From Sphingomonas immobilis (GTDB lineage Bacteria > Pseudomonadota > Alphaproteobacteria > Sphingomonadales > Sphingomonadaceae): DNA of 64,000 nucleotides. Location of the stretch: the NCBI RefSeq assembly GCF_030580995.1, contig NZ_JAUQSZ010000004.1, positions 62,001 to 126,000 of the forward strand, written 5' to 3'. Below, in pieces: positions 18,406 through 59,214 of the stretch (within the stretch, counting starts at the first letter, position 1; the number at the start of each line of letters is the position of its first letter). The translations under genes and the position numbers were made by a program. The notes below the pieces were generated by a model. The model did not search any database and had not been told where the DNA came from. It saw only the letters and a list, made by a program, of their open reading frames with translations.

Positions 18406-19935
18406 TCAGCTCGCGAAGTTGAGGCATTGCAGCTCCTGATAGACGCGCAGGCCCTCGACGCCGCGCTCGCGCCCCAGCCCGCTCGATCCATGCCCGCCCG
18501 ACGAGGCGTAGCCGCTCATCGCGCCGCCGATATTGACGTTGACCGTGCCCGAGCGGATGCGCTTGGCGACGGCGAGCGCCGCGCGCGCATCGGCACCGTA
18601 GACATAGCCCGACAGGCCGAAGATGCTGTCGTTGGCGATCTCCACGGCATGGTCGATGTCGCGGTAGCCGATCACCGCGACGATCGGCCCGAAGATCTCG
18701 TCGCGCGCGGCAGGGTTCGATGCATCGGGCACGTCGAGGATGGTCGGCTCGAAATAATGGCCCGGCGTGTCGATCGCCTTGCCGCCGGCGACGACGGTCG
18801 CGCCCGCCGCCACCGCGAGTTCGACATAGCGTTCGCAGCGCGCGCGCTGGGCCGCGTTGATGACCGGGCCCATCCGCGTCGCGGGATCGAGCGGATCGCC
18901 GGGGACGAGGCCCTCGATCGCCTTCGCCATCGCCGCCATGACGGCCGCCTTCTCGCTTTCGGGGACGAGCACGCGCGTGCCGAGCACGCAGCCCTGCCCG
19001 GCATGGGCGAGGCACACGCCCGCCGCCGCGCCGGCCGCCGCGGCGAGCCGGTCGGCCATGAAGATCTGCGCCGATTTGCCGCCGAGTTCGAGCTGCAGGC
19101 GCTTCATCGTCGCAGCACCCTGCGCCATCACCTTCTTGCCGACATCGGTCGATCCGGTGAAGCTGACCATGTCGACGCGCGGATCCGTCGTCAGCGCGAG
19201 CGCGCCGTCGGCCCCGGCCTCCGCGACGATGTTCAGCACGCCGTCGGGAAAGCCCGCCTCCTGCGCCGCCGCGACCATCGCCAGCGCCGACAGCGGCGTC
19301 AGCGGGCTCGGCCGCAGGATGACGCAATTGCCGGTGGCGAGCGCGGGAACCAGCTTCCAGATATTGAGGAAGAACGGGAAGTTATAGGCCGAGATCGCCA
19401 CGACGACGCCATGCGGAACATAGCGCCGCATGCTCTGGAACACCGTGCCCGCCGCATTGATGCGCTCCTCGAGCGGCAGCGGATTGCTCTCGCTTTCGGG
19501 CAGGGTGAGATAGAGATCGAGCTGGTCCTCGACCGTCGCGAGGGGCCCGCGCACCTGCACCGGCAGCACGACCGAGGAAATCGGGCAGCCGCCTTCGGCG
19601 ATCACGACCTTCTCCAGCTCATCCGCGCGGGAGCGGAGCGCGGCGACGAAGCGGCGCACGATCGCGACACGCTCGACCGGCTTGAGCGCCGCCCATTCGC
19701 CCGTGTCGGCGGCGGCGCGCGCTGTGGCGATCGCCGCCTCGATCTGGCCATCGGACGCGCCGGCGAATTGGGTGAACACCGCGCCGTCGCCGGGATGCTC
19801 AACCGCGATCGGGGCTCCCTCGCCCGCCACCGCGCGGCCGCCGATCAGCATTTTGTGCGGCCATCCGGCGGCGGGCATCAGCGCAGCCGCGGCGCTTCCG
19901 GTGGTGTCGGTACGGTCGATTTCGGTCACGGCCAT
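18406..19935 (-). CDS. Aldehyde dehydrogenase (NAD(P)+-dependent)
   Basis: 509 residues. Active-site glutamate about E283 in LQLELGGKSAQ, nucleophile Cys316 in HAGQGCVLGTR, NAD-binding SFTGSTDVGKKV near 258-269 and ISAYNFPFFLNIWK near 181-194. It oxidises an aldehyde to the acid, or to the acyl-CoA. It lies 34 bases after the enoyl reductase on the same strand, in the operon led by the TonB receptor, so it probably acts on an aldehyde derived from the imported compound. Confidence 0.94.
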   Translation of the reverse strand: MAVTEIDRTDTTGSAAAALMPAAGWPHKMLIGGRAVAGEGAPIAVEHPGDGAVFTQFAGASDGQIEAAIATARAAADTGEWAALKPVERVAIVRRFVAALRSRADELEKVVIAEGGCPISSVVLPVQVRGPLATVEDQLDLYLTLPESESNPLPLEERINAAGTVFQSMRRYVPHGVVVAISAYNFPFFLNIWKLVPALATGNCVILRPSPLTPLSALAMVAAAQEAGFPDGVLNIVAEAGADGALALTTDPRVDMVSFTGSTDVGKKVMAQGAATMKRLQLELGGKSAQIFMADRLAAAAGAAAGVCLAHAGQGCVLGTRVLVPESEKAAVMAAMAKAIEGLVPGDPLDPATRMGPVINAAQRARCERYVELAVAAGATVVAGGKAIDTPGHYFEPTILDVPDASNPAARDEIFGPIVAVIGYRDIDHAVEIANDSIFGLSGYVYGADARAALAVAKRIRSGTVNVNIGGAMSGYASSGGHGSSGLGRERGVEGLRVYQELQCLNFAS

Positions 19936-23495: not shown

Positions 23496-24266
23496 ATGCT
23501 GCTGCAGCACAAATCGGTCGTCATCACCGGGGCCGGATCGGGCGTGGGGCGGGCGGCGGCGGTCCTGTTCGCGCAGCACGGCGCGCGCGTGGTGTGCGCC
23601 GATATCAACCTCGACTGGGCGACCGAGACCGCGCGGCTGGCGGGGGCGGATGCCGTGCCGGTGCTGTGCAACGTAACCCAGCGCGCTGAGGTGGAGGCCG
23701 CGATCGACCTCGCCTGCGATCGCTTCGGCAGGCTCGATGTCCTCTATAACAATGCCGGCGTCGCGACCGCCAGCGACGGGCGGCCGCACCGGCTCATCGA
23801 TCAGGACGATGCCGATTTCGACCGGCTGATGTCGATCAACCTGCGCGGCATGGTCTATGGCTGCCAGGCGGCGGTGCGCCGGTTCGACGCGCAAGGCGGC
23901 GGCGGCGTGATCGTCAACACCGCATCGGTCGCCGGGCTGATCGGCTGGGGCGGCGTGATGTACGGCGCGAGCAAGGGCGGGGTCGTGCAGCTCACCCGCG
24001 CGTTGGCGATCGAGGTCGCGAAACAGGGTATCCGCGTCAACGCCGTCTGCCCCGCCGGCATGATGACCAATTTCGGGCGCACCGAAGGCGCGGGCTTTGC
24101 CGAGCGTGCCGCCGAGGAAGTGGCGCGCTATGCCGAGATGCATCCGCTCGGCCGCCCGATCGCGGCGGAGGATTGCGCCAATGCCGCGCTGTTCCTGGCA
24201 TCGGATCTGTCGTCCAACATCACCGGCGTCATGCTGCCCGTCGACGGCGGCCTCACCGCCAAGTAA
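23496..24266 (+). CDS. SDR family oxidoreductase
   Basis: 256 residues. Cofactor motif ITGAGSGVGRAAAVLF (9-24), VVCADINLDWA suggesting NAD, YNNAGVAT, and catalytic NTASVAGLIGWGGVMYGASK. The end is GVMLPVDGGLTAK. GGAGAG precedes the ATG. It is followed after 24 bases by an APH-type kinase, so the pair is one operon under site B. Substrate unknown. Confidence 0.9.
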   Translation: MLLQHKSVVITGAGSGVGRAAAVLFAQHGARVVCADINLDWATETARLAGADAVPVLCNVTQRAEVEAAIDLACDRFGRLDVLYNNAGVATASDGRPHRLIDQDDADFDRLMSINLRGMVYGCQAAVRRFDAQGGGGVIVNTASVAGLIGWGGVMYGASKGGVVQLTRALAIEVAKQGIRVNAVCPAGMMTNFGRTEGAGFAERAAEEVARYAEMHPLGRPIAAEDCANAALFLASDLSSNITGVMLPVDGGLTAK

Positions 24267-24290: not shown

Positions 24291-25355
24291 ATGACCTCGC
24301 CGTCGCCCGCGCCGCTGTACCTCGCCGAGATCCTCGATCCCGCCTGGCTGCGGCCGCGGCTCTATCCCGACCAGCCGTCGCTGCGCATCACCGGCGCGCG
24401 CGAGATCTGGCGCGAGGAGAACACGGCCACCAAGGTGCGCGTGGAGCTCGATCTCGAGAACGCCGCTCCGGGCACCGGCCGCACGATCTGCATCAAGGGC
24501 ATGATCGACGAATCGGGCATGAAATGGGTGTCGAGCGGCACCTCGGCGACGGAATCGCATTTCTATGCGCAGATGGCGCCGGGGCTCGCCGCCGCCGGCA
24601 TCAACGTGCCCGACTGCCTCTACACCGCGATCGATCCCGAAAACGGCCACGGCCTGCTTATCATGAAGGACATGGTGGTCGAGGGCGCGACCTTCCTGAC
24701 CGCACTGACCCCCTATTCGCCCGATCAGGCCCGCGACAGCCTCGCCCAGCTCGCGCGGCTGCATGTCGAAACCGGCGCGGGCAAGCCGTTGCACGACATG
24801 GCGTTCAAGGGCATCACGCTCGACCGCCTCGCTGCGGAGTCGCTGATCCCGCTCGACATGCTGCAAGGGCTGCTCGACGATCCGCGCGGCGCGCCGCTGG
24901 CGGCTGAGGTCAAGAACGCGGGCCGCCTGCACCGTTCGCTCGGTGCCCTGCGCGATTGCTTCGCGGGGGAGCCGACCTGCATCGTCCACGGCGACGCGCA
25001 CGCCGGCAACCTCTATCGCAAGGACGGCGCGGCGGGGATCATCGACTGGCAGGTCGTCCAGCACGGGCACTGGGCGCAGGACGTCGCCTATCACATCGTC
25101 GCCGCGTTGAGCGTCGAGGATCGCCGTGCCCACGGCGACGCGCTGCTCGATGTCTATCTTGCCGAGCGGGCGCGACTGGGCGATCCCGTGGCCGATCACG
25201 ACACCGCCCGCGCGCATTTCCGCGCGGCGGTGGTCTATGGCTATTACATGTGGGGCGTCACCCGCCGCGTGCGGCCCGATATCATCCGCGAGTTCGTCAA
25301 GCGGCTGGGCCTCGCCGTCACCGAATATCGCAGTTTCGAGCTGCTCGGCGTCTAG
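24291..25355 (+). CDS. APH-type phosphotransferase (kinase-like)
   Basis: 354 residues with the C-terminal kinase-like signature HGDAHAGNLYRKDGAAGIID followed by W: catalytic Asp and Asn, then the metal-binding Asp. N-terminal nucleotide-binding strands precede it. It is not likely to be an antibiotic kinase here. Members of this superfamily (LvaA in levulinate catabolism, ACAD10/11) phosphorylate hydroxyacyl-CoA intermediates, and the catabolic operon context supports such a role by inference. Its TAG stop overlaps the stop of the convergent second kinase within one CTAG. Confidence 0.85.
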   Translation: MTSPSPAPLYLAEILDPAWLRPRLYPDQPSLRITGAREIWREENTATKVRVELDLENAAPGTGRTICIKGMIDESGMKWVSSGTSATESHFYAQMAPGLAAAGINVPDCLYTAIDPENGHGLLIMKDMVVEGATFLTALTPYSPDQARDSLAQLARLHVETGAGKPLHDMAFKGITLDRLAAESLIPLDMLQGLLDDPRGAPLAAEVKNAGRLHRSLGALRDCFAGEPTCIVHGDAHAGNLYRKDGAAGIIDWQVVQHGHWAQDVAYHIVAALSVEDRRAHGDALLDVYLAERARLGDPVADHDTARAHFRAAVVYGYYMWGVTRRVRPDIIREFVKRLGLAVTEYRSFELLGV

Positions 25356-26906: not shown

Positions 26907-28256
26907 ATGGCGGCGTCGATGGAGCAGGTGTGGTTTCGCGGCGCGCAGGGCAACCGCCTCGCGGCGTCCGCGATCGGCGACGGCGATGCGCCGATCGTGC
27001 TGCTGCTGCCCGCCGTCGGGCAGAGCCGCCACGTCTGGTCGGGCGCGGCCATCGCGCTCGCCGCCGCCGGCCGCCGCGCGATCTGCGTCGATCTGCGCGG
27101 GCATTGCGACAGCGAGCCCGCGCCGGGCGGCGATTACGACCTGAGCGGCTATGCCGCCGATCTCGCCGCCGTGCTCGCCCAACTCCCCTCGCGCGCGACC
27201 GTCGTCGGTGTGGGGCCCAGCGGCCTCGCCGCGCTCGTCGCGGCGGGCGAAGGCGGGGCGGACCTGATGTCGGCGCTGGTGCTGGTCGGCGTCACCGCCT
27301 GGGTCGATCCCGAGACCGCCGCGCGCATCCGCGTCGCGCTCGAACGCCGCGCGGAGGCCTTTGCGGACGAAACCGCGGTGCTCGATGCGATCGCGCGCGT
27401 CCACCCGTTCGAACCTGCGCCGTCCGCCACGCGCCAGTTGATCGGCGCATACGAACGCGGCGAGGATGCGCTGTGGCGCTGGCGCGGCGATGCGCGCACC
27501 TTCGCCGGTTTCGACCTGGCGGCACAATCGGCGCGGATCGAGGCGGCGGCGGCAAAGCTCAGACTGCCGGCGCTGCTGATCCGAGGGACGCTCAACGAAT
27601 CGGTCTCGCGCGCGGCGACGGACAGATTGCAGGCAATGATCGCGGGCGCAGAAGCCGTCGAGATCGACGGCGGTGGCCATTACGTCGTCACCGATCACGA
27701 AGACGCGTTCAACGCGCGGCTGCTCGAATTTCTCGAACGCCGCCTGCCCCTACAGGCGCGCAGCTACCAGAGTGGCGCCGATCCGCGCCTGCTGCGCGAC
27801 GCGATGGGGTGTTTCGGCACCGGCGTCACGGTGGTGACGACGCTCGATGCGGAGGGCGCGCCGATCGGCTTCACCGCGAACAGCTTCACCTCGGTCTCGC
27901 TCGACCCGCCGCTGGTGCTGTTCTGCATCGCGCGCAAATCGGCGAATCTGCAGAGCTTCGTCGATGCGCGCAGCTTCGCGATCAACATCCTGCACATCGG
28001 CCAGCAGCCGACCTCGGACCGCTTCGCCCGCCCCGGCGACGCCCGGTTCGAGGGCATCGAATGGCAGGTGCGCGAAGGTGGCGGCGCGCCGATCCTGACC
28101 GGATCGCGCGCGTCGTTCGATTGCACGACGCACGCCATCCACGACGGCGGCGATCATCTGATCGTGGTGGGCCGCGTCGAGCGCGCCGATTTCGAGCCGC
28201 ACCGCGACCCGCTGCTGTACCTGCAGGGCAAGTACCGCCGCGTTCACTTCGCCTGA
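26907..28256 (+). CDS. Alpha/beta-hydrolase fused to a flavin reductase domain
   Basis: 449 residues, two domains. Residues about 5-280 are an alpha/beta-hydrolase: nucleophile region VVGVGPSGLAAL (Ser, but the last Gly of GxSxG is Leu), a Glu in LIRGTLNESVS where Asp is usual, and His in GGGHYVVTDHEDAF. Residues about 288-449 are a FMN-binding split barrel of flavin:NADH reductases (AMGCFGTGVTVVTTLDAEGA, TANSFTSVSLDPPLVLFCIA). It could supply reduced flavin to a monooxygenase and hydrolyse its product. GGGAG before the ATG at 26907 supports the start. The frame is continuous, so the fusion looks real. Confidence 0.85.
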   Translation: MAASMEQVWFRGAQGNRLAASAIGDGDAPIVLLLPAVGQSRHVWSGAAIALAAAGRRAICVDLRGHCDSEPAPGGDYDLSGYAADLAAVLAQLPSRATVVGVGPSGLAALVAAGEGGADLMSALVLVGVTAWVDPETAARIRVALERRAEAFADETAVLDAIARVHPFEPAPSATRQLIGAYERGEDALWRWRGDARTFAGFDLAAQSARIEAAAAKLRLPALLIRGTLNESVSRAATDRLQAMIAGAEAVEIDGGGHYVVTDHEDAFNARLLEFLERRLPLQARSYQSGADPRLLRDAMGCFGTGVTVVTTLDAEGAPIGFTANSFTSVSLDPPLVLFCIARKSANLQSFVDARSFAINILHIGQQPTSDRFARPGDARFEGIEWQVREGGGAPILTGSRASFDCTTHAIHDGGDHLIVVGRVERADFEPHRDPLLYLQGKYRRVHFA

Positions 28257-29579: not shown

Positions 29580-29780
29580 TCAATCGAGGATCTGGATTGC
29601 GCTCTCGGGGCAGGCTTCGGCCCCCTCCCGCGCCTTGTCTTCGAGGCCGGCGGCGATGGTGAACGGCCCGTCGGCGCCGACCAGGCCGTTGAACCCGTCC
29701 TTCAGCCAATAGACTTCGGGCGCGGCCTCCACGCACGTCTGCGCGCCGCAGCACAGATCGGGGGAAACGCAGACTCGCAT
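29580..29780 (-). CDS. 3Fe-4S type ferredoxin, P450 partner
   Basis: 66 residues. Cluster ligands follow the P450-ferredoxin pattern: Cys10 and Cys16 in DLCCGAQTC, and a third Cys in EACPESAIQ near the C-terminus. The CxxHxxC-like site has Ala where some homologues have His or Cys, consistent with a 3Fe-4S cluster. It would pass single electrons to the P450 encoded next. First gene of the two-gene operon under site D. Confidence 0.92.
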   Translation of the reverse strand: MRVCVSPDLCCGAQTCVEAAPEVYWLKDGFNGLVGADGPFTIAAGLEDKAREGAEACPESAIQILD

Positions 29781-29887
29781 ATTCAGCCATCCTCTCATCG
29801 CAGGTGCCGCCGCGGCGTTCACGCCCGTGAAGGGCCCGGCCGTCTTCTCGCACGCAAACGCCTTTTGGCTATGGGCGGGGAAACGAT

Positions 29888-29927
29888 GCAAGTATATTTT
29901 GTGGCGTCTTTGATATGCTGGGGATAT
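29888..29927 (-). promoter_or_regulatory. LysR-type site D between lysR and the ferredoxin-P450 operon
   Basis: Read leftward: ATATCCC-N4-ATATCAA-N14-ATACTTGC. The ATAT-N7-ATAT part lies closest to the lysR gene, whose start is about 60 bases away, and the third half-site faces the ferredoxin gene. A site between a LysR gene and its divergent target is the classical arrangement for the family. Confidence 0.65.
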
Positions 29928-29986
29928 CACACCAATGGTCAGCGCCGGTCGGCGGCAGCACGATATGAAGGCGGGAACGGGCGCTT

Positions 29987-33535: not shown

Positions 33536-34753
33536 GTGAGTGGGCCACTAGCCGGCGTCCGCGTGATCGAGGTGGCGATGTGGGCGTTCGTGCCTTCGGC
33601 CGGTGCGATCCTGTCCGACATGGGTGCCGATGTCATCAAGCTGGAGCCGCCCGCCGGCGACCCGATTCGCGCTCTGGTCACGGGTGCCGACGTGCCGGGA
33701 TCGTCGGACGGCTTCGTCCTCTCCTGGGAGAATTACAATCGCGGCAAGCGCAGCGTCACGCTCGATCTCAACGTCGACGGCGCGCTGGACGTGCTCGACA
33801 GGATGCTGGAGAGTGCGGACGTGTTCCTCACCAGCCTGCTGCCGCCCGCGCGGCGGCGGCTGGGGATCGATGTCGAGCAGATCCGCACGCGCCATCCGAA
33901 GCTGATCTACGCCGTCGGCAGCGGCAGCGGCGCGCACGGGCCGCAGGCGGAAAAAGGCGGCTACGATGCGATCACCTTCTGGGCGCGCGGCGGCATCGCC
34001 GATGCCGTGACGCCGCCCGAACAGCCCTATCCGCTGCCGATGCCGTCAGGAGCGTTCGGGGATTGCACCAGCGGCGCGGCACTGGCGGGTGGCATCTGCG
34101 CCGCGCTCTACAAGCGGCAGGCGACCGGCGCGGCAAGCGTGGTCGACGTGTCGCTGCTCGGCACCAGCCTGTGGTCGATGCAGCGCACCATCACCGAGGC
34201 GACGATCAAGCGCCAGAAGCGCCTGCCGCGCCACGGCCGCACGGCGATGCCCAATCCGCTCGTCAACACCTATCGCACTGCCGACGATCGCTTTCTGGCG
34301 CTCTGCATGTTGCAGGGACAGCGCTACTGGCCGGGCTTCTGCGAGGCGGTGGGCCGCGCGGACCTCGCCACCGACGCGCGCTACGCCACCGCCGAGGCGC
34401 GCGCGGCGAACCTGACCGAATGCGTGGCCGAGATCGACGCGATCTTCGCGACGCGGAGCCTCGCGGACTGGCGGGTCGCGCTCGCGACGCAGGGCGGCCA
34501 GTGGGACGTCGTCCAGCAACCCGGCGAGCTGGTCGACGACGAGCAGGTCGTCGCCAATGCGCTGATGCAGGATGTCGATTACGGCGACGGCCGCTCACTG
34601 AAGATGGTGAGCGCGCCGATGCAATTCGATCGCAAGGCCTTGCCCGCCCGCGCCGCGCCCGAGAAAGGCGCCGGCAATGACGAGGTGCTCGCCGAGCTCG
34701 GCTATGACGAGGATGCTATCATCGACCTGAAGGTCGCCGGGATCGTCTATTGA
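33536..34753 (+). CDS. CaiB/BaiF family (class III) CoA-transferase
   Basis: 405 residues. LAGVRVIEVAMWAFVPSAGA, then ILSDMGADVIKLEPPAGDP, is the family N-terminus, followed by NRGKRSVTLDLN. The aspartate that forms the acyl anhydride is about D176 in PSGAFGDCTSGAAL. It moves CoA between a donor thioester and a free acid, activating the acid for degradation. The next gene starts inside its stop codon (TGATG). First gene of the three-gene operon under site F. Confidence 0.94.
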   Translation: MSGPLAGVRVIEVAMWAFVPSAGAILSDMGADVIKLEPPAGDPIRALVTGADVPGSSDGFVLSWENYNRGKRSVTLDLNVDGALDVLDRMLESADVFLTSLLPPARRRLGIDVEQIRTRHPKLIYAVGSGSGAHGPQAEKGGYDAITFWARGGIADAVTPPEQPYPLPMPSGAFGDCTSGAALAGGICAALYKRQATGAASVVDVSLLGTSLWSMQRTITEATIKRQKRLPRHGRTAMPNPLVNTYRTADDRFLALCMLQGQRYWPGFCEAVGRADLATDARYATAEARAANLTECVAEIDAIFATRSLADWRVALATQGGQWDVVQQPGELVDDEQVVANALMQDVDYGDGRSLKMVSAPMQFDRKALPARAAPEKGAGNDEVLAELGYDEDAIIDLKVAGIVY

Positions 34754-35175
34754 TGGCGGAGGGCGTCGCATCCGAACCGCGCATCCTGCCGGGGCTGAGC
34801 GCGCTCAACCGCCCCTATTGGACCGGCGGCGCGGAAGGGCGGCTGATGATCGCGCGCTGCGGCGCTTGCGGCTTCTACCTCCACCCGCCGATGCCCGCCT
34901 GCCGCCGGTGCGGCAGCGACGACGTCGGCCCGCAGGCCGTATCGGGGCGCGGCCGTATCGCCAGCTTCACGATCAACCACCAGGCGTGGATGCCGGGCAT
35001 GCGCGTGCCGTTCGTCTTCGTCGCCGTGGAGCTCGAGGAACAGGCCGGGCTTCACGTCTTCAGCAATGTCGAAGGGTGCGCGCCGGAAGCGGTGGCGGCG
35101 GGGATGGCGGTCGAGGTGTTCTTCCGCGCGGCGGAGGACGTACATCTCCCCTTCTTCCGCCCGGTCGCGCCATGA
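34753..35175 (+). CDS. DUF35 OB-fold protein with zinc ribbon
   Basis: 140 residues. A rubredoxin-like zinc ribbon (Cys36, Cys39, Cys50, Cys53 in CGAC and CRRC) is followed by an OB-fold (GRGRIASFTINHQAWMPGMR). These proteins partner thiolase-fold enzymes; the ChsH2 DUF35 domain with Ltp2 in steroid side-chain breakdown is the best-known pair. Overlaps both neighbours (TGATG before, ATGA after), so it is co-expressed with the thiolase-fold protein in equal amounts. Confidence 0.92.
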   Translation: MAEGVASEPRILPGLSALNRPYWTGGAEGRLMIARCGACGFYLHPPMPACRRCGSDDVGPQAVSGRGRIASFTINHQAWMPGMRVPFVFVAVELEEQAGLHVFSNVEGCAPEAVAAGMAVEVFFRAAEDVHLPFFRPVAP

Positions 35176-36356
35176 TCCTGCCCGAACGCAAGGTCTGCAT
35201 CTCCGGCGCGGGCCAGTCGGAGGTCGCGCGGCCCTCCAGCCGCGATGCGCTGGCGCTGACGGTCGATGCGTGCCGCGGCGCGATCGCGGCGGCGGGGCTC
35301 ACCCCCGGCGATATCGACGGCCTCGCGACGTATCCCGGCCTCATCGCCAACGGCGACGGCATGTCGCCGGTCGGCGCGACCGAGACGATGATCGCGCTCG
35401 GCCTCTCGCCGACTTGGGTCGGTGCCTCGACCGAGGGGCATGCGCATATGGGCGCGATCTTCAACGCAATCCAGGCGATCGCCTCGGGCCTGTGCCGCCA
35501 TGTCCTCGTCTTTCGCACCGTCGCCCAGGCGACCGCGCGCGCACAGGTCCACCACGCCGGCATCATCGGCGGCGCACAGGCCACGACGGCGCGCAGCTGG
35601 GGCGGGATGGCGTGGCAGATGCCCTATGGCGCGGTATCGGCAGCACCCCTGTTCGCGCTCTACGCCCAGGCCTATTTCGCCAGATACGGCGCGACCTCGC
35701 GCCAGCTCGGCGCGATCGCCGTCAACAGCCGGCGGATGGCGGCGCTCAACCCCAATGCCATCTACCGCGATCCGATCACCATCGAGGACTATCTCGCCGC
35801 GCGGATGATCTCCGATCCGCTGCGTATCTACGATTGCGACACGCATATCGACGGATCGACCGCGATCCTGCTGTCGCATGTCGACTGCGCCGCCGACCTG
35901 CCCCGTCCGCCGATCCTGATCGAGGCGATGGGCATGGCGATCGGCGGCTTCGGCGCGGGCCTGCACGAGGGCGACTTCACCCGCCTCCCCGCCGACCGCG
36001 CGGGCGAGATGCTGTGGTCGCGCACCGAACTCACCCCCGCCGACCTCGACTTCGCGCAGATCTACGACGGTTTCTCGATCCTCACTCTGCTATGGCTGGA
36101 AGCGCTGGCGATCTGCGGCCGCGGCGAGGCGGCCGCCTTCGTCGAGGGTGGCGCGCGCATCGCGCTCGACGGCGTGCTGCCGCTCAACACCGGCGGCGGC
36201 CAGCTCTCGGCCGGGCGCTTCCACGGCTACGGCCATTTGTTCGAGGCGTGCGCGCAGCTTTGGGGCGAGGCCGGCGCGCGTCAGCTTGCCGATCCGCAGG
36301 TCGGCGTCGTCAGCAACGGCGGCTTTGGCTACGGCGCGCTGCTGTTGCGGCGATGA
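35172..36356 (+). CDS. Thiolase-fold protein, Ltp2-like (likely aldolase partner of DUF35)
   Basis: 394 residues of the SCP-x/thiolase fold. Where the nucleophile Cys normally sits, the sequence is VGASTEGHAHMGAIF, with no Cys. The C-terminal block is NTGGGQLSAGRFHGYGHLFE rather than the GHPxGxTG of thiolases. Loss of the Cys, together with the adjacent DUF35 partner, matches Ltp2-type retro-aldolases, which split a beta-hydroxyacyl-CoA without CoA attack. I infer carbon-carbon cleavage of a branched or tertiary beta-hydroxyacyl-CoA. Confidence 0.88.
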   Translation: MILPERKVCISGAGQSEVARPSSRDALALTVDACRGAIAAAGLTPGDIDGLATYPGLIANGDGMSPVGATETMIALGLSPTWVGASTEGHAHMGAIFNAIQAIASGLCRHVLVFRTVAQATARAQVHHAGIIGGAQATTARSWGGMAWQMPYGAVSAAPLFALYAQAYFARYGATSRQLGAIAVNSRRMAALNPNAIYRDPITIEDYLAARMISDPLRIYDCDTHIDGSTAILLSHVDCAADLPRPPILIEAMGMAIGGFGAGLHEGDFTRLPADRAGEMLWSRTELTPADLDFAQIYDGFSILTLLWLEALAICGRGEAAAFVEGGARIALDGVLPLNTGGGQLSAGRFHGYGHLFEACAQLWGEAGARQLADPQVGVVSNGGFGYGALLLRR

Positions 36357-36452: not shown

Positions 36453-37616
36453 ATGGCGACCCAAGTGAACGATTCGCCGATCGTCGATGCCGACGCGCAC
36501 GTGAACCCCTTCCCCGATTTCTGGTCGGATTATCTGCCCGCGCACCTGCGCGATCTCGCCCCGCGGATCGAACATGGCGACGAGAGCGAGGATTGCGATT
36601 ATGTCGTGTTCGAAGGGCGCCGCAAGAAGCTCAACCTGATCGGCGCGCAGGCCGGCCGCAAGGGCAAGGATTTCAAGATCAACGGCCGCGCCTCCGACGC
36701 CCGCTCCGGCGGGTGGGAGCCCGCCGCCCGGCTCGAGGACATGAACACCGACGGCATCGACGCGGCGTTGCTGTTCGGCGGCGGCCCGCTCGGCACCGGC
36801 AACAACGAACTGTTCCAGGCGAGCTTCGACGCCTACAACACATGGCTTGCCGATTTCTGCGATTATGCGCCCGGCCGCCTCGGCGGCGTCGGCTATGTGC
36901 CGATGCAGGATGTCGGCGAATCGATCCGCATGATGCGCGATTTCGCGCGGCGCGGGCTGAAGGCGGTCAACATCCCCGCATTCCCGATGTCGGCGACCAG
37001 CCTCGCCAGCGCGGGCGCGGGCGCTGCCCAGACGCTGGCGCTGACCGGCGACACGAGCGGCGCGCGCACCTATGCCGATCCCGAGTTCGATCCCTTCTGG
37101 CAGGCCGCGATCGAGCTTGGCCTGCCGGTGACGATACACCTCGGCGGGCGCTCGGTGCGCTTCCTGGAGCCGCAGCACTTCCTGCCCGATCTGCTGATGT
37201 CGAAATTCGCGATGGCGGAGCCGATCGCGGTGCTGATTTTCGGCGGCGTGTTCCAGCGCTTCCCCGATCTCAGGTTCGTGTCGGTCGAAAGCGGCGTGGG
37301 CTGGTTCGCCTTTGCGGCGGATTACATGGACAAGACCTGGGAAAAGCAACGCTTCTGGACCAAGAGCGTGCTCGAACAGCCGCCGAGCCACTTCATGGAG
37401 CAGAACGTGTTCGGCTCGTTCATCCACGATGCGCCCGGCGTCGCGATGCGGCATCTGCCGGGGGCGAAGAACATCATGTGGTCCTCCGACTATCCCCATT
37501 CGGAGACGACCTTCCCCGATTCGCACAAGGTCATCGATCAGCTTTTCGCCGGCGTGCCGGATGACGAGCGCAAGGTCATCACCGGGCTGCGCGCCAAGCA
37601 GTTGTTCAACTTCTAA
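36453..37616 (+). CDS. Amidohydrolase-family metal-dependent hydrolase (ACMSD-like)
   Basis: 387 residues of the amidohydrolase_2 TIM barrel. Metal-site motifs: IVDADAHVNPF (DxH, residues 14-16), VTIHLGG near 227, and MWSSDYPHSETTFPDS with the catalytic Asp near 344. The family includes decarboxylases and hydrolases of aromatic or cyclic acids (ACMSD, 5-carboxyvanillate decarboxylase, OMA hydratase), so ring cleavage or decarboxylation is possible. CAAGGAGAG precedes the ATG. Single gene under site G, ended by a hairpin. Confidence 0.9.
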   Translation: MATQVNDSPIVDADAHVNPFPDFWSDYLPAHLRDLAPRIEHGDESEDCDYVVFEGRRKKLNLIGAQAGRKGKDFKINGRASDARSGGWEPAARLEDMNTDGIDAALLFGGGPLGTGNNELFQASFDAYNTWLADFCDYAPGRLGGVGYVPMQDVGESIRMMRDFARRGLKAVNIPAFPMSATSLASAGAGAAQTLALTGDTSGARTYADPEFDPFWQAAIELGLPVTIHLGGRSVRFLEPQHFLPDLLMSKFAMAEPIAVLIFGGVFQRFPDLRFVSVESGVGWFAFAADYMDKTWEKQRFWTKSVLEQPPSHFMEQNVFGSFIHDAPGVAMRHLPGAKNIMWSSDYPHSETTFPDSHKVIDQLFAGVPDDERKVITGLRAKQLFNF

Positions 37617-44748: not shown

Positions 44749-45549
44749 CTAGCGCCCGGCCCAGACCGGCGCGCGCTTTTCCAGGAAGGCGCGTGGCCCT
44801 TCGCGCGCATCCTCCGTGGCGCTGGTCGTCTTGCTCGCCGCGTCACCGAGCGCGCGCAGCTCCGCCTCGCTGCGGTCGCTGACCAGCCGCGCGACCTTCA
44901 GCGTCTCGCGCACCGATACCGGCGCGGCGCTGGCGATCGCCCCGGCCAGGTCGCGCGCCGCGCCCAGCACGCCGGCGCTCGGCACGAGGCGATTGACCAG
45001 CCCCAGCGCATAGGCGCGCTCGGCGGAGATGGGATCGCCCGTCGCCAGCATTTCCAGCGCGACGTTGCGCGGGATCGCGCGCGGCAGGCGGAACGTCCCG
45101 CCGCCGCCTGCGAACAGCCCGCGCTTCGTCTCGGGCAGGCCGAAGCGCGCATCGTCGGCGGCGACGATCATGTCGCAGGCCAGCGCCAGCTCGAACCCGC
45201 CGGCCAGGCACGCGCCGCGTACCGCCGCGATCCACGGCTTGTCGCGCTTCGCATCGTTGAAGCCGGCGAACCCGTCGCCGTCGGGCGCGATCAGCGCCCC
45301 GCGCCCGGCCGCAATCTCGGCCAGATCGGCCCCGGCGCAGAAGGTCGATTCGAGCGAGGAGGTGATGATTGCGACGCGGATGGCGTCGTCGGCCTCCACC
45401 TGCTTGACGATCCACTGCACCCCGCGCGCCAGCTCGGCATTGACCGCGTTGCGCTTCTCTGGCCGGTTGAGCGTGACGATGGCGACATGATCGTCGACGA
45501 TCTCGAACAGCACTTCCTTGCCGACGGCGGCCGGCGTCTCCGTGGTCAT
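44749..45549 (-). CDS. Enoyl-CoA hydratase/isomerase
   Basis: 266 residues of the crotonase fold. Both catalytic glutamates of hydratases are present: CLAGGFELALACD and RFGLPETKRGLFAGGGG. The oxyanion-hole block is FCAGADLAEI. It should hydrate an enoyl-CoA. CGGGAGAG precedes the ATG at 45549. Last gene of the five-gene leftward operon that starts at 48984. Confidence 0.93.
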   Translation of the reverse strand: MTTETPAAVGKEVLFEIVDDHVAIVTLNRPEKRNAVNAELARGVQWIVKQVEADDAIRVAIITSSLESTFCAGADLAEIAAGRGALIAPDGDGFAGFNDAKRDKPWIAAVRGACLAGGFELALACDMIVAADDARFGLPETKRGLFAGGGGTFRLPRAIPRNVALEMLATGDPISAERAYALGLVNRLVPSAGVLGAARDLAGAIASAAPVSVRETLKVARLVSDRSEAELRALGDAASKTTSATEDAREGPRAFLEKRAPVWAGR

Positions 45550-46338: not shown

Positions 46339-47139
46339 TCAATCGGCCGTGTAGACCGGCTCGCGCTTCTCCAGAAACGCCTTCATGCCCTCGGCGAAAT
46401 TGGGGCTCTTGCTGGTCATAAGCTGGTTGCGGTTCTCGATCGCCATCGCCGCCTCCAGGCTGGTCGCATCGACCGCCATGTTGAGCCCTTCCTTGGTCAT
46501 GCGCAGCCCCATCGGCGAGGCGTGGAGCATGTCGTCGATATACGATTGCGCCGCCGCCTCGAGCTGGTCGTCGGGCACCACTTCGGACACCAGGCCCGTC
46601 GCCAGCGCCCGCTGCGCGCGGATGAAGCGCCCGGTCAGCATCAGTTCCGAGGCCACCGACACGCCGACGAGGCGCGGCAGGAAATAGCTGACGCCCATGT
46701 CGCACGACGACAGGCCGATGCGGATGAAGGCGGCGTTCATCTTCACCGATTCGCCCGCGATCCGCACGTCCGCCGCCAGCGCGAAGGCGAAGCCGCCGCC
46801 GCACGCGGGGCCCTGCACCAGCGCGATGATCGGCTGCGGGCAGCGCCGCATCTTGATGTAGACATCGGCGAGATAGCCCTGGAATCCGAAGCCGCCGCCG
46901 AAGGGCACTTCGGATTCGTCGCGTTCGTCGCGCTGCTTGATGTCGAGCCCGGCGCTGAACGCGCGCCCCGCCCCGCGCATCACCACCAGCCGCACGCTGC
47001 CGTCGTTGTATAGCTTGCCGAAATAGTCGTTGAGCTCGCCGACCATCTCGATCGAGATCGCGTTGAGCGCCTCGGGCCGGTTGAGCGTCAGCCAGTCGAC
47101 CTGACCGCGCTTTTCGACGGTGATCGTTTCATAGGTCAT
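46339..47139 (-). CDS. Crotonase-fold protein without the two hydratase glutamates
   Basis: 266 residues. The oxyanion block FSAGLDIKQRDERD and fold are clear, but the two catalytic Glu positions of enoyl-CoA hydratase are Ala (PACGGGFAFALAAD) and Phe (KMNAAFIRIGLSSC). An Asp follows in SSCDMGVSYF, close to the Asp used by dienoyl-CoA isomerase. It is more likely an isomerase or another crotonase chemistry than a hydratase. It lies 15 bases after the MDR gene in the operon. Confidence 0.9.
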   Translation of the reverse strand: MTYETITVEKRGQVDWLTLNRPEALNAISIEMVGELNDYFGKLYNDGSVRLVVMRGAGRAFSAGLDIKQRDERDESEVPFGGGFGFQGYLADVYIKMRRCPQPIIALVQGPACGGGFAFALAADVRIAGESVKMNAAFIRIGLSSCDMGVSYFLPRLVGVSVASELMLTGRFIRAQRALATGLVSEVVPDDQLEAAAQSYIDDMLHASPMGLRMTKEGLNMAVDATSLEAAMAIENRNQLMTSKSPNFAEGMKAFLEKREPVYTAD

Positions 47140-52798: not shown

Positions 52799-53637
52799 GG
52801 CTTGCGCGCGAGGATCTTCTTGTCCCAATCGCGCTCGCGGTAGAGGCGGTCGAAATTGGGCTGGCCGGTCTGCGCCGTCACGCCGCCGTCGACCGTCAGC
52901 GCGACGCCGGTGATATAGGCGGCGTCGGCCGATGCGAGGAAGGTGATCGCCGCCGCCATCTCCTCGGGCGTGCCGACGCGGCCGAGCGGCACGAGCCGTT
53001 CGTATTCGGCCATGATCGCGGCGTCGCGCATGTGCGCGGTCAGCATCGGCGTGCCGACCCCGCCCGGGCAGATGCAGTTGGCGCGGATGCCGTCGGCGGC
53101 ATGATCGACCGCCAGGTTGCGGGTAAGATTGATGACCCCCGCCTTCGCGACGTTATAGGCGACGAGCCCGGCATCGGCGAGCTGCCCGGAGATCGAGGCG
53201 GTGTTGACGATCGCCCCCCGGCTCCTGCGCAGGTGTGGCAGCGCAGCACGGCAACCGAAGAACACCGCGTCGAGATCGACCGCCATCGTCTTGCGCCACG
53301 CCTCGGGCGTGATTTCGTCGACGTGGCCGAAACAGCCGATCCCGGCATTGTTGACCAGCACGTCGAGCCCGCCGAGCGCCGCCGCCGCCGCCTCGACAAA
53401 GGCTTCGACAGCGGCACCATCCGCCACATCGACTGCCTTCAGGAACAGGTCGGCGGGTGCGAGGGCCAGCCCCTCGGCAAAGGCAGCGAGCCTGTCCCCC
53501 GCAAGATCGCACAACGCGAGCCGCGCGCCCTCGGCGGCGAAGCGCGTCGCGGTCGCAGCACCAATCCCGGACGCCGCGCCGGTAATCGCGACGACCTTGC
53601 CGGCGAAGCGGCGCATCGATCCCAACGGCTCGGTCAT
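52795..53637 (-). CDS. SDR family oxidoreductase
   Basis: 280 residues. ITGAASGIGAATATRF (cofactor, about 18-33), NNAGIGCFG, NTASISGQLADAGLVAYNVA followed by K (active site), and TVDGGVTAQ. A 25-residue C-terminal tail follows. The ATG overlaps the stop of the transketolase C-subunit (ATGA). It may oxidise or reduce the alcohol made or used by the transketolase-like pair. Substrate unknown. Confidence 0.92.
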   Translation of the reverse strand: MTEPLGSMRRFAGKVVAITGAASGIGAATATRFAAEGARLALCDLAGDRLAAFAEGLALAPADLFLKAVDVADGAAVEAFVEAAAAALGGLDVLVNNAGIGCFGHVDEITPEAWRKTMAVDLDAVFFGCRAALPHLRRSRGAIVNTASISGQLADAGLVAYNVAKAGVINLTRNLAVDHAADGIRANCICPGGVGTPMLTAHMRDAAIMAEYERLVPLGRVGTPEEMAAAITFLASADAAYITGVALTVDGGVTAQTGQPNFDRLYRERDWDKKILARKP

Positions 53638-54629
53638 GCCAGCAGCTTCCGCACCGCGTCGGCCACGCCCGGCCCGGTCAGGCCGTAGTGGCGGTAGAGC
53701 TGCGTCGGCGGCGCGACGAGCGCGTAATCGTCGGGCAGCGCATGCTTGGCGAAGCGGATGCCCAGCCCGGCCTCGGCGATCACCTCGGCGACGGCGCTGC
53801 CGAGCCCGCCATAGGGGTTATGCTCCTCGACGGTCAGGATGCCGCCCGTCTCGCGCGCCGCCGCCAGAATCGCCTCCCGGTCGATCGGCTTGAGGTACAC
53901 CGCGTCGAGCACGCGCACCGCGATGCCCTCCTGCGCCAGGGCCTCGGCAGCGTCGATCGCCGCCTTCACGCCGAGTCCTGTCGCGATCACGGTCGCCGCA
54001 TCGCCCTCGCGCAGCGGCACGAAGCGGCCGTGGGCGAAATCGGGGATCTGCGCATAGACCTGCTTCTCCGCCCCGCGCCCGATGCGGATGTAGACCGGCC
54101 CGTCGAGATCGATCGTGGTGCGGATCAGCCCGCGGATCGCATTGCCGTCGGCGGCGGAGACGACCGTCATGTTGCCCATCGCGCGCGTCACCGCGATATC
54201 CTCCACCGCGTGATGCGACGTGCCGTAGAAGCCCATCGAGATGCCGGCGTGATGCGCGAGAATGCGGACCTTCATCTTCGTATAGGCAAGGTCGGTGCGC
54301 AGCTGTTCCGCACACAGCAGCGACGCGAACGATGCGAAGGTCGAGACGAAGGGAATCATGCCCGTGGAGGCCATGCCGGCGGCGAGCGACATCATGTTCT
54401 GCTCGGCGATGCCGGTGTTGACGAAGCGATCGGGATAGCGCCGCTCGAACGCATCGAGTCCGTTGGAGGAGGCGAGATCGGCGGTCAGTACGACGATGTC
54501 GTCGCGCACCGCCGCCAGTTCCTCCAGCTCCGCGCTCATCGTCAGCGCGGGCAGCCGCGGCATCGAGGTGAGGATGTTCCAGCTCGCGGGATCGAGCATC
54601 TCGTCCGCGGCCGCCACCGGATCGGTCAT
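53634..54629 (-). CDS. Transketolase-like protein, C-terminal (pyrimidine) subunit
   Basis: 331 residues. FVNTGIAEQNMMSLAAGMAS holds the glutamate that activates TPP; HHAGISMGFYGTSHHAVEDI and IGRGAEKQVY belong to the pyrimidine-binding half, and GGILTVEEHNPYGGLGSAVA to the C-terminal domain. It pairs with the subunit encoded immediately upstream to form a split transketolase or DXS-like enzyme that moves a two-carbon unit. Overlaps both neighbours by ATGA. Confidence 0.93.
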   Translation of the reverse strand: MTDPVAAADEMLDPASWNILTSMPRLPALTMSAELEELAAVRDDIVVLTADLASSNGLDAFERRYPDRFVNTGIAEQNMMSLAAGMASTGMIPFVSTFASFASLLCAEQLRTDLAYTKMKVRILAHHAGISMGFYGTSHHAVEDIAVTRAMGNMTVVSAADGNAIRGLIRTTIDLDGPVYIRIGRGAEKQVYAQIPDFAHGRFVPLREGDAATVIATGLGVKAAIDAAEALAQEGIAVRVLDAVYLKPIDREAILAAARETGGILTVEEHNPYGGLGSAVAEVIAEAGLGIRFAKHALPDDYALVAPPTQLYRHYGLTGPGVADAVRKLLA

Positions 54630-55492
54630 CGCGCCATCCTCTCTTCGATCTCGCCGACCGCGACCGCCTTGTCGGCGGGCCCGAGGAAGCCGAGGTGCCA
54701 ATAGGGCGTGGTTTCCATGAAGCCGACGCCCTTCCCCTTCTTGGTCCGCGCGACGATCATGTGCGGGCGGCCCTCCGCGCGCACCTGATCCTGCGCGCTG
54801 TCGAAGGCGGCGACGACGGCGGCCATGTCGTGCCCGTCGATCTCCTGCGTCGACCAGCCGAACGCCGCGAACTTGTCGGCGATCGGCTCGATGTTCATCA
54901 CGTCGCCGACATCGCCGTCCAGCCCCATGCCGTTGGCGTCGACGATGCCGATCAGGTTCGCAAGGCCGTAATGCGCCGCCGACTGTGCCGCTTCCCACAC
55001 CTGCCCCTCGTTGAGCTCGCCGTCGCCGAGCATCACCCAGGTCAGATAATCGCGACCGCGCATCTTCGCGGCAAGCGCGATGCCGACGCCGACCGACAGA
55101 TTGTGCCCGATCGAGCCCGAGCTGAAATCACAGCCCGGCACCTTGTTCATGTCGGGATGATCGCCAAGCGCACTGCCGAGCCGGGTGTAGGTGTCGAGCC
55201 AGTCGGCCGGGAAATAGCCGAGATCGGCGAGGATCGGATATTGCCCGATCGCCGCATGCCCCTTGCCGAGCAGGAAGCGGTCGCGGTCGGCCCACAGCGG
55301 ATCGGTCGGGTTGAGGCGCAGCGTGCGGTAGTAGAGCGCCGCGAACATCTCCGCGCAGGAAAAGACGCTGGAATAATGCCCGCTCTTCGCGATCTCGACG
55401 AGGCGGATCGTCTCGAGCCGGATCCAGTCGGCGCGGTTCTCGAGATCGCGCAGCGGCACGTCCCGGTTCCGCTGCAGCACGCTGTTTTGCAT
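54626..55492 (-). CDS. Transketolase-like protein, N-terminal (TPP-binding) subunit
   Basis: 288 residues. The TPP/metal motif GDGELNEGQVWEAAQSAAHY, then VDANGMG, spans about 156-190. GKGHAAIGQYPILADLGYFP and HPDMNKVPGCDFSSGSIGHN are family blocks. With the next gene it makes a complete split transketolase. GGGAG fixes the ATG at 55492. First gene of the operon with an SDR and an Asp-hydrolase; the leftward promoter may be TTGACG, 17 bases, CTTACA, just upstream. Confidence 0.93.
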   Translation of the reverse strand: MQNSVLQRNRDVPLRDLENRADWIRLETIRLVEIAKSGHYSSVFSCAEMFAALYYRTLRLNPTDPLWADRDRFLLGKGHAAIGQYPILADLGYFPADWLDTYTRLGSALGDHPDMNKVPGCDFSSGSIGHNLSVGVGIALAAKMRGRDYLTWVMLGDGELNEGQVWEAAQSAAHYGLANLIGIVDANGMGLDGDVGDVMNIEPIADKFAAFGWSTQEIDGHDMAAVVAAFDSAQDQVRAEGRPHMIVARTKKGKGVGFMETTPYWHLGFLGPADKAVAVGEIEERMAR

Positions 55493-56960: not shown

Positions 56961-58106
56961 TCAGACGCGCGTGCGATAATCGGCGGCGTCATAGGCGCGC
57001 AGCGGCTCGCCGCCCCGCACGCGGCTGGCCCAGTCGGCGTTGGTGAGCAGGCCGCGCCCCACGCCGACCAGCGATATCTCGCCCGATGCCACCATCGCGC
57101 GCGCCTGGCCGACATTGTCCGCCACCGCCGAACTCTGCCCGAGCGAGGATTGCAGATCGTCGGCAAGGCCGACACCGCCCACTGCCATCGCCGGCTTGCC
57201 GGTGATCTTCTGCGCCCAGGCCGCCAGGCCGAGCGGCGAGCCGTCGAAGGCGGGCGTCGCGAACTTGCGCGTACTCGCGTCGAAGATATCGACCCCGGCA
57301 TCGGCCAGCGGCTCCAGCAACGCCGCCAGCGCCTCTGGCGTCTCGGCCAGCCGCGCGCCGTAATCGTGCAGCTTCCACTGCGAGAAGCGGAACATGATCG
57401 GCGCGTCGCCGATCTCGCGGCGGATCGCGCGCACCACCTCCGCGCCGAAGCGCGCGCGCTCGGCCAGCGTCGGCCCGCCCCAGCCGTCGTCGCGCCGGTT
57501 GGTGACGTGCCAGAAGAACGTGTCGAGCAGATAGCCGTGCGCGCCGTGGATCGCGATGCCGTCGAACCCGCAGGCCATCGCGTTGGCGGCGCTGCGCGCG
57601 AAGGCGGCGATCACGTCGGCGATCTCCTCCTCGCTGGCCGGTTCGGTCTCGGCGGTCGCAAGCGCGAGATACTCCGCCGCGAAGAACGGGCTCGGCGTCT
57701 CCGGCCCCCAGATCCCCGACGGGCGCGGCGATCGGCCCTTGTAGCGCCCGCTGTCGTCGATGCGCAGCCCGCCCTGGTGCCAGAGCTGCGGGAAGATGAT
57801 GCTGCCCGCGCCGTGGACCCGCTCGACGATCCCATGCCACGCGGCCAGCGCAGCCTCGCCGAACATCTCGGGAATGTCCTCGCCCCCGCTCCCCGAATTG
57901 CCGATCGCGGCGGGATGCTCGACCGCGACGCCCTCGGTCACGATCAGGCCGATCCCGCCCTCGGCGCGGCGGCCGTAATAGTCCGCCGCCGTCTCGGGCG
58001 GCACGCCGTCGGGCGAGAATCCGCGCGTCATCGGCGACATCACCAGCCGGTTGGGCAAAGTCACGCCGCCGCCAACGGCGAGCGGATCGAACAGCGGATC
58101 GCTCAA
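56961..58106 (-). CDS. NADH:flavin oxidoreductase / old yellow enzyme family
   Basis: 381 residues of the TIM-barrel OYE family. LPNRLVMSPMTRGFSPDGVP binds FMN, FDGIAIHGAHGYLLDTFFWH has the substrate-binding His pair region, RFSQWKLHDYG is a block, and SLVGVGRGLLTNADW holds the phosphate-binding end. It would reduce the double bond of an enone. The TTG start overlaps the kinase stop (TTGA) with GAGGGAG 5 bases upstream, an unusual but convincing start. Confidence 0.9.
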   Translation of the reverse strand: MSDPLFDPLAVGGGVTLPNRLVMSPMTRGFSPDGVPPETAADYYGRRAEGGIGLIVTEGVAVEHPAAIGNSGSGGEDIPEMFGEAALAAWHGIVERVHGAGSIIFPQLWHQGGLRIDDSGRYKGRSPRPSGIWGPETPSPFFAAEYLALATAETEPASEEEIADVIAAFARSAANAMACGFDGIAIHGAHGYLLDTFFWHVTNRRDDGWGGPTLAERARFGAEVVRAIRREIGDAPIMFRFSQWKLHDYGARLAETPEALAALLEPLADAGVDIFDASTRKFATPAFDGSPLGLAAWAQKITGKPAMAVGGVGLADDLQSSLGQSSAVADNVGQARAMVASGEISLVGVGRGLLTNADWASRVRGGEPLRAYDAADYRTRV

Positions 58107-59214
58107 GTCAGCTCCCTCACCAGATGCAGCGTGTCGTGGTCGCGCACCGCGGTGCCGGTGCGCGTCAGGTTGGCGCGGTTCAGCGCCTCGCCGTAATTGG
58201 CGATCGGCGTGGTCAGCCAACCGACGTAGAAACTCCACAGGATCGCCCGGCGATAGTCAAGCCACGCCTCTTCCGCGGAAGGCGGCGCAACGACGCCGTA
58301 TTCGCGCAAACGCTCCAGATAATGGCCGAGCAGCGCGCGTTCCTCGGCACGGCGCGTCTCGACGTCGAGGGCGGTGAGGATCAGGTAATTGACGTCGTGC
58401 GCCCAAGCGCCGCGCGCGGTGAGCTGCCAGTCGAGCAGCCCGGCCGTACCGTCCGGCAGCAGATACGCATTACCGATATGGCCGTCGCCCTGCAGAATCG
58501 TCTGCGGCAGCGTCGCCTGATGCCGCTGCAGCGCGCCATAGAGCGCGTGCAGGGCCGGCACGTCGGTGTCGAGGCTCGCGACGAGATCGCGCTTGAACGG
58601 ATTGACCGCGATGTCGCCGCTGATCGTCAGCGGCAGCGAGGCGTCCATGCGGTCGTGCAGCGACCCCGCGACATGGCTCTGATACCAGGCAAGGTCGCCG
58701 CGCAGGCGCGGGCTGTCCCAGATGCCGCGTGCAGCCGCGCCATCTGGTCGAGCACCGCGCGCACCTCCGCCAGGCTGTTGTCGCGCACCGCGCTGGGGAA
58801 CACCGCGCCGCGCAGCGACAGATCCTCGAGCAGCAGATAGTAGAGCGCCGTCTCCTTGTCGCACACGCCGCCGACCACCACCGGCGCCTCGATGGCGAGG
58901 CCAGGGCGCAGCCGCACGTAGAAATCGACCTCGTTCTGATAGAGTTCGCCCAGCACCGCGTCGATGCTGCGCTTCATCTTGACCGCGACCTGGCGCGGCA
59001 GATCGTCGGGCGCACCGGGCGCGTAGTCGAGCCGCATCTTCAGCCGGTCCGATGTCGAGACCATGATCTCGCCGTACCGCTTGCGCTCGAGCAGTTCGAA
59101 GCCCGTGACGGTGACGCCCGGATGCACCGTGCGCACCACTTGCGTCAGGAATTCGGGCGTCAGCCCCTCGACATCGGCAGGAATGGCGAGCGGCGTGTCG
59201 ATTTCGTCAAGCAT
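58103..59214 (-). pseudogene. APH-type phosphotransferase, split by a frameshift
   Basis: The first part (from ATG 59214, MLDEIDTPLAIPADVEGLTP) reads through VLDQMARLHAA. The second part continues in another frame as RGIWDSPRLRGDLAWYQSHV to 58103, with the Brenner motif QGDGHIGNAYLLPDG then LLDW (His of HGD replaced by Gln). The two parts join near 58722-58738, where one inserted base, or two removed, restores one reading frame of about 370 residues. It may be a true mutation or a sequencing error. GGAG precedes the start. The gene sits in the operon after the SnoaL-like gene. Confidence 0.85.

Follow-up and report, generated by a model that had tools for sequence, protein, structure and literature searches.

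What reaction is carried out by a thiolase-fold protein that lacks the nucleophilic cysteine of thiolases, and what does it share with the coenzyme A (CoA)-transferase and the supposed amidohydrolase encoded beside it? This question is raised by a locus of Sphingomonas immobilis lying in a window of 64,000 nucleotides (contig NZ_JAUQSZ010000004.1, C16:62001-126000; genome of 4.13 Mb in 21 contigs), where four closely packed genes of the plus strand encode, in this order, a class III (CaiB/FRC-type) CoA-transferase of 405 aa (33536-34753), a DUF35 protein of 140 aa (34753-35175), the thiolase-fold protein of 394 aa, here called THL (35172-36356), and an 'amidohydrolase' of 387 aa (36453-37616). 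The ATG of the DUF35 gene at 34753 shares one base with the stop codon of the CoA-transferase gene (TGATG), and the start of the THL gene overlaps the end of the DUF35 gene by four bases (ATGA, 35172), in agreement with the original prediction, which had described an overlapping pair at 34753-36356. The fourth gene starts 96 bases after THL and has an AAGGAG of its own, resembling a ribosome-binding site. Our analysis leans, by a little, towards a four-protein, three-step module for acyl-CoA cleavage, in which CoA transfer would be followed by O2-dependent beta-hydroxylation and by a retro-aldol cut. The support for it comes from sequence relationships, predicted folds, conserved residues and gene linkage, from which the reactions and their order are inferred.

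THL matches the Pfam domain Thiolase_C_1, and a phmmer search against the PDB ranks Ltp2 (6OK1) first (E 7.5e-50), followed by a Sphaerobacter protein (4U4E) and by Sal (9MYR, 8e-32), a bile-acid aldolase (PMC12329534). Structure prediction against Ltp2 had been proposed as a check, and an AlphaFold model of the THL chain alone (16 sequences, mean predicted local distance difference test score, pLDDT, 67.8; predicted template modelling score 0.77), whose middling pLDDT makes it fit for judging the fold and not side-chain geometry, has its nearest fold in Ltp2, with a Z of 41.2 and a root-mean-square deviation of 2.7 A over 356 aligned residues (next entry, 39.3). The alignment places the nucleophilic Cys of thiolases (rows 7YVY, L034 and L080) on Gly89, which follows a class-specific Glu88 (35433-35438). 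The Cys of the HDCF motif falls on Gly300, within Y298-D-G-F (36063-36074), where Tyr298 occupies the base position of Ltp2 Tyr294 and Sal Tyr302, and the His of GHP falls on Arg349, within G-R349-F-H351-G (36213-36227), a position held by Tyr344 in Ltp2 and by Gln352 in Sal. GRFHGYGH stands where GHPxGxTG is expected, so that both replacements noticed earlier in the letters are borne out, with the restriction that the word 'cysteine-less' is valid for the active-site positions only, since THL has seven Cys elsewhere (residues 9, 34, 108, 222, 239, 315 and 360). A canonical thiolase was rejected for THL, as the nucleophilic Cys and the GHP His are both absent. As no solved structure comes nearer to it in sequence or in fold than the aldolase Ltp2, THL is best read as a putative retro-aldolase, the activity that had been preferred to thiolysis from the start.

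The substitutions do not look accidental. Glu88, Gly89, YDGF, Arg349 and His351 are invariant in THL and 15 orthologues of 60-75% identity (retrieved with peptides covering parts of two of the motifs), and this invariance, taken with the E-value of the match to Ltp2, argues against chance. Over an alignment of 71 rows, the residue at the place of Tyr298 follows the thiolase Cys: it is His in the four rows that have this Cys and Tyr in the 66 that lack it, with one gap and no mixed case. Arg349 is present in 51 of the 52 YDGF rows and in none of the 19 others; the 51 rows that carry it have Gly300, Asp223 and Trp308 without exception, His351 in 50 cases and, at residue 88, Glu in 46, Asp in four and one gap. 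The 20 rows without Arg349 never have Asp223 or Trp308, and have Gly300 once (L022, YDGF with His) and Glu88 once (IpfD). A maximum-likelihood tree of 70 rows (the fragment L033 was dropped) gathers the 50 YDGF/Arg rows in one clade (100/100), a result partly expected because the rows were collected by similarity to THL; the characterised enzymes included in the tree, Ltp2, Sal and IpfD, all stand apart from this clade. By sequence, the YDGF/Arg proteins are a separate, well-supported active-site class beside Ltp2 and Sal.

This pattern bears on two other readings of THL. That THL and DUF35 form a thiolase or acyltransferase in which another residue, such as Glu88, replaces the Cys, or that they work in the synthetic direction, is very improbable: benzoylsuccinyl-CoA thiolase, the acetoacetyl-CoA thiolase of the HMG-CoA synthase complex and PhlABC are also partnered by DUF35 proteins (PMC12329534) and reach Z 37-39 against the THL model, but none of the 51 YDGF/Arg rows, 50 of which have a letter at the nucleophile position, shows a Cys there, and all have Arg in place of the GHP His and the Tyr of the aldolase YD motif. 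Even harder to credit is a non-catalytic CoA-ester carrier or scaffold. The NCBI models that score best on THL, all below their cut-offs, do include the names 'lipid-transfer protein' and 'thiolase domain-containing protein', yet the complete conservation of Asp223, Gly300 and Trp308 (51/51), and that of Glu or Asp at residue 88 (50/51, one gap), is not obviously needed by a passive carrier.

The parallel drawn originally was with Ltp2-ChsH2(DUF35) of Thermomonospora curvata (6OK1), an aldolase acting on the C3 side chain of steroids, and it stands for the general build of the pair and not for the details of catalysis. Both thiolase-fold chains lack the nucleophilic Cys, carry the Tyr of a YD-x-F motif and x-H-G after the GHP position, and have a C4-type DUF35 partner, Ltp2 being nearest by sequence as well as fold. 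Tyr294 of YDHF serves as the base of Ltp2, Tyr344 as its acid and the YDHF His as its oxyanion hole (PMC12329534), whereas THL has YDGF, with Gly300 for that His, Arg349 for Tyr344 and Glu88 in addition. Moreover, the DUF35 protein of the window is free-standing and not a domain of a MaoC hydratase subunit, as in ChsH1/ChsH2, and the pair adjoins an oxygenase and a CoA-transferase. Sal-Shy(DUF35) of Comamonas testosteroni (9MYR) is likewise a thiolase-fold retro-aldolase with a DUF35 protein and a YD-motif Tyr base; it uses Tyr302 and Cys304 of its YDCY motif and has Gln352 where Ltp2 has Tyr344, mutagenesis having been carried out in CtSal (PMC12329534). THL differs from it by Gly300 for Cys304 and Arg349 for Gln352, and Glu88 is absent from both Ltp2 and Sal. 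A Glu at that position does occur in IpfD-IpfE of pIBU218, a pair of thiolase-fold and OB-fold proteins proposed to act as a retro-aldolase on an oxygenase-hydroxylated acyl-CoA, in which IpfD has been tied genetically to retro-aldol release of propionyl-CoA (PMC9195938). Unlike THL, IpfD has YDAF and Tyr at the place of Arg349, and its pathway takes the hydroxyl from a ring dioxygenase and uses a CoA ligase instead of a CoA-transferase. The ibuprofen plasmid also bears a second pair (L100:939-2503), of Ltp2 type (YDHF/Tyr), accompanied by genes for a CaiB protein and an enoyl-CoA hydratase.

The other members of the predicted pathway fit their expected families. The DUF35 protein joins a rubredoxin-like zinc ribbon to an OB fold (zf-ChsH2, 46 bits; OB_ChsH2_C, 55 bits), and its nearest PDB chain is ChsH2(DUF35), 6ok1_B (E 4.4e-20), which is consistent with its predicted role as partner of the thiolase-fold chain. 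Zinc ribbons of two types are described, C4 in ChsH2 and C3H1 in Shy (PMC12329534), and Cys36, 39, 50 and 53 of the window protein (34858-34911, C-x2-C-x10-C-x2-C) would make a ribbon of the C4 type rather than C3H1. The product of 33536-34753 has the CoA_transf_3 domain (297 bits), so that a CoA-transferase and not a ligase precedes the pair, as first noted. When aligned with Rv3272 (5yit) and FRC (3ubm), its Asp176 (GAFGD) falls on the catalytic Asp, a position with D in 5yit and A in 5yiy, and these features together favour the earlier proposal that a free acid is activated through CoA exchange. An alpha-methylacyl-CoA racemase, belonging to the same superfamily, was considered for this gene and rejected, given that its best matches among solved chains are transferases (Rv3272, 1.9e-39), ahead of racemases (4.6e-24 and weaker), and that the FRC-like Asp is present.

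The 'amidohydrolase' gene (36453-37616) had been overlooked in the original prediction, and it is the most probable source of the beta-hydroxyl that a retro-aldolase would need. Its product matches PtmU3 (6omp, 1.5e-34) and DitZ (8uyr, 1.4e-29) in phmmer, and its model (mean pLDDT 82), predicted to be a TIM barrel, is nearest to DitZ (Z 34.4) and PtmU3 (33.2), followed by an uncharacterised amidohydrolase (30.7), the oxygenase SfbO (29.1) and decarboxylases (29.0 and below). Such enzymes have been grouped as amidohydrolase-related dinuclear oxygenases (ARO) (PMC10811679), with metal ligands exemplified by Asp25, His27, His211, Glu265, Asp337 and His340 of AibH2 and by the LynB7 set, and with an acidic residue, Glu313, in PtmU3 (PMC7782822, PMC10127204). 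All seven metal-site residues are found in the window protein, namely the six ligands (DxH, H, E, DxxH: D14, H16, H229, E279, D346 and H349) and the acidic residue two positions on (E351). It appears from sequence, ligand set and predicted fold to be a PtmU3/DitZ-type dinuclear oxygenase, although its identity to PtmU3 and DitZ is 29% and 25% in structural alignments (6OMP and 8UYR) and the hydroxylase role is predicted. PtmU3 itself catalyzes O2-dependent hydroxylation at C-5 of diterpenoid-CoA intermediates (PMC7782822, PMC10127204). DitZ shares its gene-name family with DitF, a putative sterol-carrier-like protein of the Pseudomonas abietaniphila resin-acid cluster that is described as needed for growth on resin acids.

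It could be argued that the ARO is instead a metal-dependent enzyme which hydrolyses or decarboxylates the product of the cleavage, while the beta-hydroxy acid used by THL is made by a cytochrome P450. PF04909 does include carboxylases, hydratases and hydrolases (PMC10811679), decarboxylases match the ARO model with Z up to 29.0, and a P450 homologue lies near THL in 11 of the 17 close relatives (L007-L021, L083 and L084; THL identity 60-75%, 6.6-19 kb examined at each). This is nonetheless improbable, as the ligand set is complete, including the Glu and the acidic residue of DxxHxE, and the Z of the best-scoring decarboxylase is lower than that of DitZ by 5.4 and than that of PtmU3 by 4.2. 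Two aligned ACMSD chains, which are one-metal decarboxylases, lack two of these residues, the Glu at the 279 place and the His at the 349 place; a mononuclear decarboxylase is disfavoured by ligand set and fold ranking.

The C-5 hydroxylation by PtmU3 reportedly prepares the cleavage of the A ring. In the module proposed here, the class III CoA-transferase would move CoA onto a free carboxylic acid, the ARO would use O2 to hydroxylate the beta carbon of the resulting acyl-CoA, and THL, held by DUF35, would then cut the alpha-beta bond by a retro-aldol reaction. Tyr298 would take the proton of the beta-hydroxyl, the C-C bond would break, a ketone or aldehyde would leave and the CoA enolate would be protonated. 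Since the known acid positions hold none of His, Cys and Tyr, Glu88 is proposed as the acid, and Arg349 and His351 may hold the thioester oxyanion and Glu88. The shorter acyl-CoA left after cleavage could even, as a speculation, feed CoA back to the transferase. The ARO is the best hint to the substrate, suggesting an acyl-CoA refractory to beta-oxidation, likely derived from a branched and perhaps terpenoid acid in which the alpha or the beta carbon stands in the way of that route. A broader proposal, which we hold as a serious possibility somewhat short of even chances, is that Glu88, Tyr298 and Arg349 constitute a third design of thiolase-fold retro-aldolase, the second half of a general O2-dependent 'hydroxylate then cut' module with PtmU3/DitZ-type oxygenases, which would open acyl-CoAs resistant to beta-oxidation and might supply the C-C cleavage that is missing downstream of PtmU3-like hydroxylation in terpenoid pathways. 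Concerning the platensimycin cluster, the main text of PMC6006322 mentions neither 'thiolase' nor 'DUF35'.

The genes of the module also tend to lie together in relatives. The CoA-transferase lies directly upstream of THL in 13 of the 17 close relatives, and in L011 its homologue is found 7 kb downstream. An ARO of at least 52% identity is found 0.1-2 kb from THL in 12 of the 17, upstream in L007 and on the opposite strand in L010. Three ARO paralogues (1686-2894, 9281-10465 and 10529-11716) surround a single THL-DUF35 operon within about 10 kb in L008. Outside the window clade, an ARO lies within 10 kb in 20 of 33 YDGF/Arg rows, compared with 2 of 14 rows of other kinds (Fisher p 0.0045). The rows compared are not independent, since L092/L086, L093/L087, L098/L088 and two L091 rows share AROs, since of the two positive rows of other classes L101 has its ARO in common with a YDGF protein, and since seven plasmid loci were hand-picked from a hit list. 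Among these seven, the loci of Massilia putida, Sphingomonas paeninsulae, Mycobacterium branderi and Sphingobium RAC03 carry an ARO, at a distance of 5 kb in M. branderi, and by coordinates THL homologues, their class unchecked, lie less than 1 kb from AROs in Rhodococcus BH4, Rhodococcus WAY2 and R. rhodochrous.

The origin of the beta-hydroxyl is the point at which a more orthodox alternative has to be weighed, namely that THL is an Ltp2-like retro-aldolase whose beta-hydroxyacyl-CoA comes from dehydrogenation and hydration encoded elsewhere, the ARO acting at another position or step. Ltp2 and Sal act after a MaoC-type hydratase (PMC12329534), the window itself has enoyl-CoA hydratases at 44749-45549 and 46339-47139, and homologues of ACAD, ECH, MaoC or HAD are present in 26 of 29 other YDGF/Arg loci. 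Against it, the same 16 query proteins detected no such homologue in the stretches examined of 15 of the 17 close relatives (L008 and L014 have them), and no MaoC homologue in 16 of the 17, so that ordinary beta-oxidation or hydration offers no obvious origin for the hydroxyl in the window clade; in addition, the DUF35 protein is unfused to MaoC and the ARO stays close to THL in the 12 relatives mentioned. We regard this alternative as rather unlikely, and the argument from absent beta-oxidation genes weakens outside the window clade, where the 26 of 29 loci hold such genes (three of the loci being the source of some queries, and the overlapping L092, L093 and L098 being left out of the count) and the hydroxyl could come from hydration. 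Beta-oxidation genes are also present in 8 of 11 loci of other THL classes.

A variant of the module is carried by the Novosphingobium resinovorum plasmid pSA1 (L108:11038-15122), which encodes in a row a CoA-transferase (41% identity), a THL, a DUF35 protein (31%) and an ARO (50%). The plasmid THL shares only some 30% identity with that of the window, and its YD at the base position and its AYMHG put a Tyr at both catalytic places of Ltp2. That one module bears two different THLs, one of them with the Ltp2 catalytic Tyr pair, would be predicted if retro-aldol cleavage were their common function.

Several observations weigh against the three-step module besides the beta-oxidation genes of most other YDGF/Arg loci. 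The pSA1 protein is a single case, and its motif is YDPA and not YDxF. The middling confidence of the THL model falls below a pLDDT of 50 at residues 340-350 and 212-225, the acid and oxyanion residues were assigned by alignment alone, and the search returned no published assay of any YDGF/Arg-class protein, so that the aldolase activity of the class is predicted. Neither a Rieske protein nor a reductase is seen within the four-gene operon. Five of the 17 close relatives lack an ARO in the stretch examined, two of them (L013 and L017) lying at contig ends; L014 and L020 retain the CoA-transferase, and in L009 both the ARO and a nearby CoA-transferase are missing. Likewise, no ARO is present in the remaining three of the seven plasmid loci (M. 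intracellulare, Caulobacter FWC26 and Streptomyces NBC_00564).

Thiolase-fold aldolases with DUF35, and AROs, are already known as kinds of enzymes. For the YDGF/Arg active-site class and the operon pairing of THL-DUF35 with an ARO, no description was found in the open literature searched, a body of papers that excludes most subscription articles, including the original ones on Ltp2 and PtmU3; the open-literature papers mentioning both 'amidohydrolase' and 'DUF35' concern other subjects, judging by their titles and the openings of their abstracts. Plasmid records annotate THL merely as 'thiolase family protein' and the ARO as 'amidohydrolase family protein'. If the module is real, both annotations mislead, and the pair would be an oxidative C-C cleavage module for CoA-bound acids, with loci in Sphingomonadales, Caulobacter-type bacteria, Massilia and mycobacteria. 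It would then account for the opening of acids that are blocked for beta-oxidation, as in diterpenoid A rings or branched pollutants, provide operon-linked AROs with a testable function, and bring to three the active-site solutions of a small aldolase family of biocatalytic interest.

The wider surroundings of the operon may contribute earlier steps. On the minus strand, a cytochrome P450 (28276-29565; Pfam p450, 94.5 bits), the one with homologues in 11 of the 17 relatives, would be the probable first step of a wider cluster, and the adjoining single-cluster 4Fe-4S ferredoxin (29580-29930, minus strand; Fer4_15/Fer4_13) its possible electron donor. An aldehyde dehydrogenase (18406-19851, minus strand; Aldedh, 422 bits) has homologues of 55-61% identity in 8 of the 17, a short-chain dehydrogenase (23496-24266, plus strand) of 52-58% in 7, and an APH/EcKL phosphotransferase (24291-25355, plus strand) of 38-45% in 9. 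The P450 with its ferredoxin and the two dehydrogenases would fit a prior oxidation of a methyl group to the acid. A steroid pathway is unsupported: the FAD-binding protein at 59688-61412 scores far below the cut-offs for 3-ketosteroid dehydrogenase (best, 123 of 789 bits), no genome-wide screen for steroid genes having been made.

The distribution of the cluster is patchy. At E <= 1e-80, THL is matched in 10 of 296 genomes of the order, its own included; copies of at least 60% identity are found, among the other nine, in G615 and G633 only, and no other sampled genome of the same genus passed that threshold. S. immobilis itself encodes five more THL homologues, of which three are YDGF (one cut by a contig end), one is YDHF/Tyr and one is a canonical HDCF protein. 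In its genome, some 5 kb separate an Ltp2-type (YDHF/Tyr) THL-DUF35 pair from another ARO (27%) (L035:9558 and L035:3210). Proteins that combine YDCF with a His at the GHP position, encoded next to DUF35 genes, make up an additional THL class in the same phylum (L076, L078 and L082). Near the P450, a single gene (26907-28256) fuses an alpha/beta hydrolase to an HsaB/HpaC-type flavin reductase, and full-length homologues of this fusion adjoin THL genes in L011 (54%) and in L035 of the own genome (46%). Finally, on the minus strand, an EcKL/APH-like phosphotransferase (58103-59214) may be split over two overlapping frames, and a transketolase (53634-55492) is encoded as two separate half-genes.

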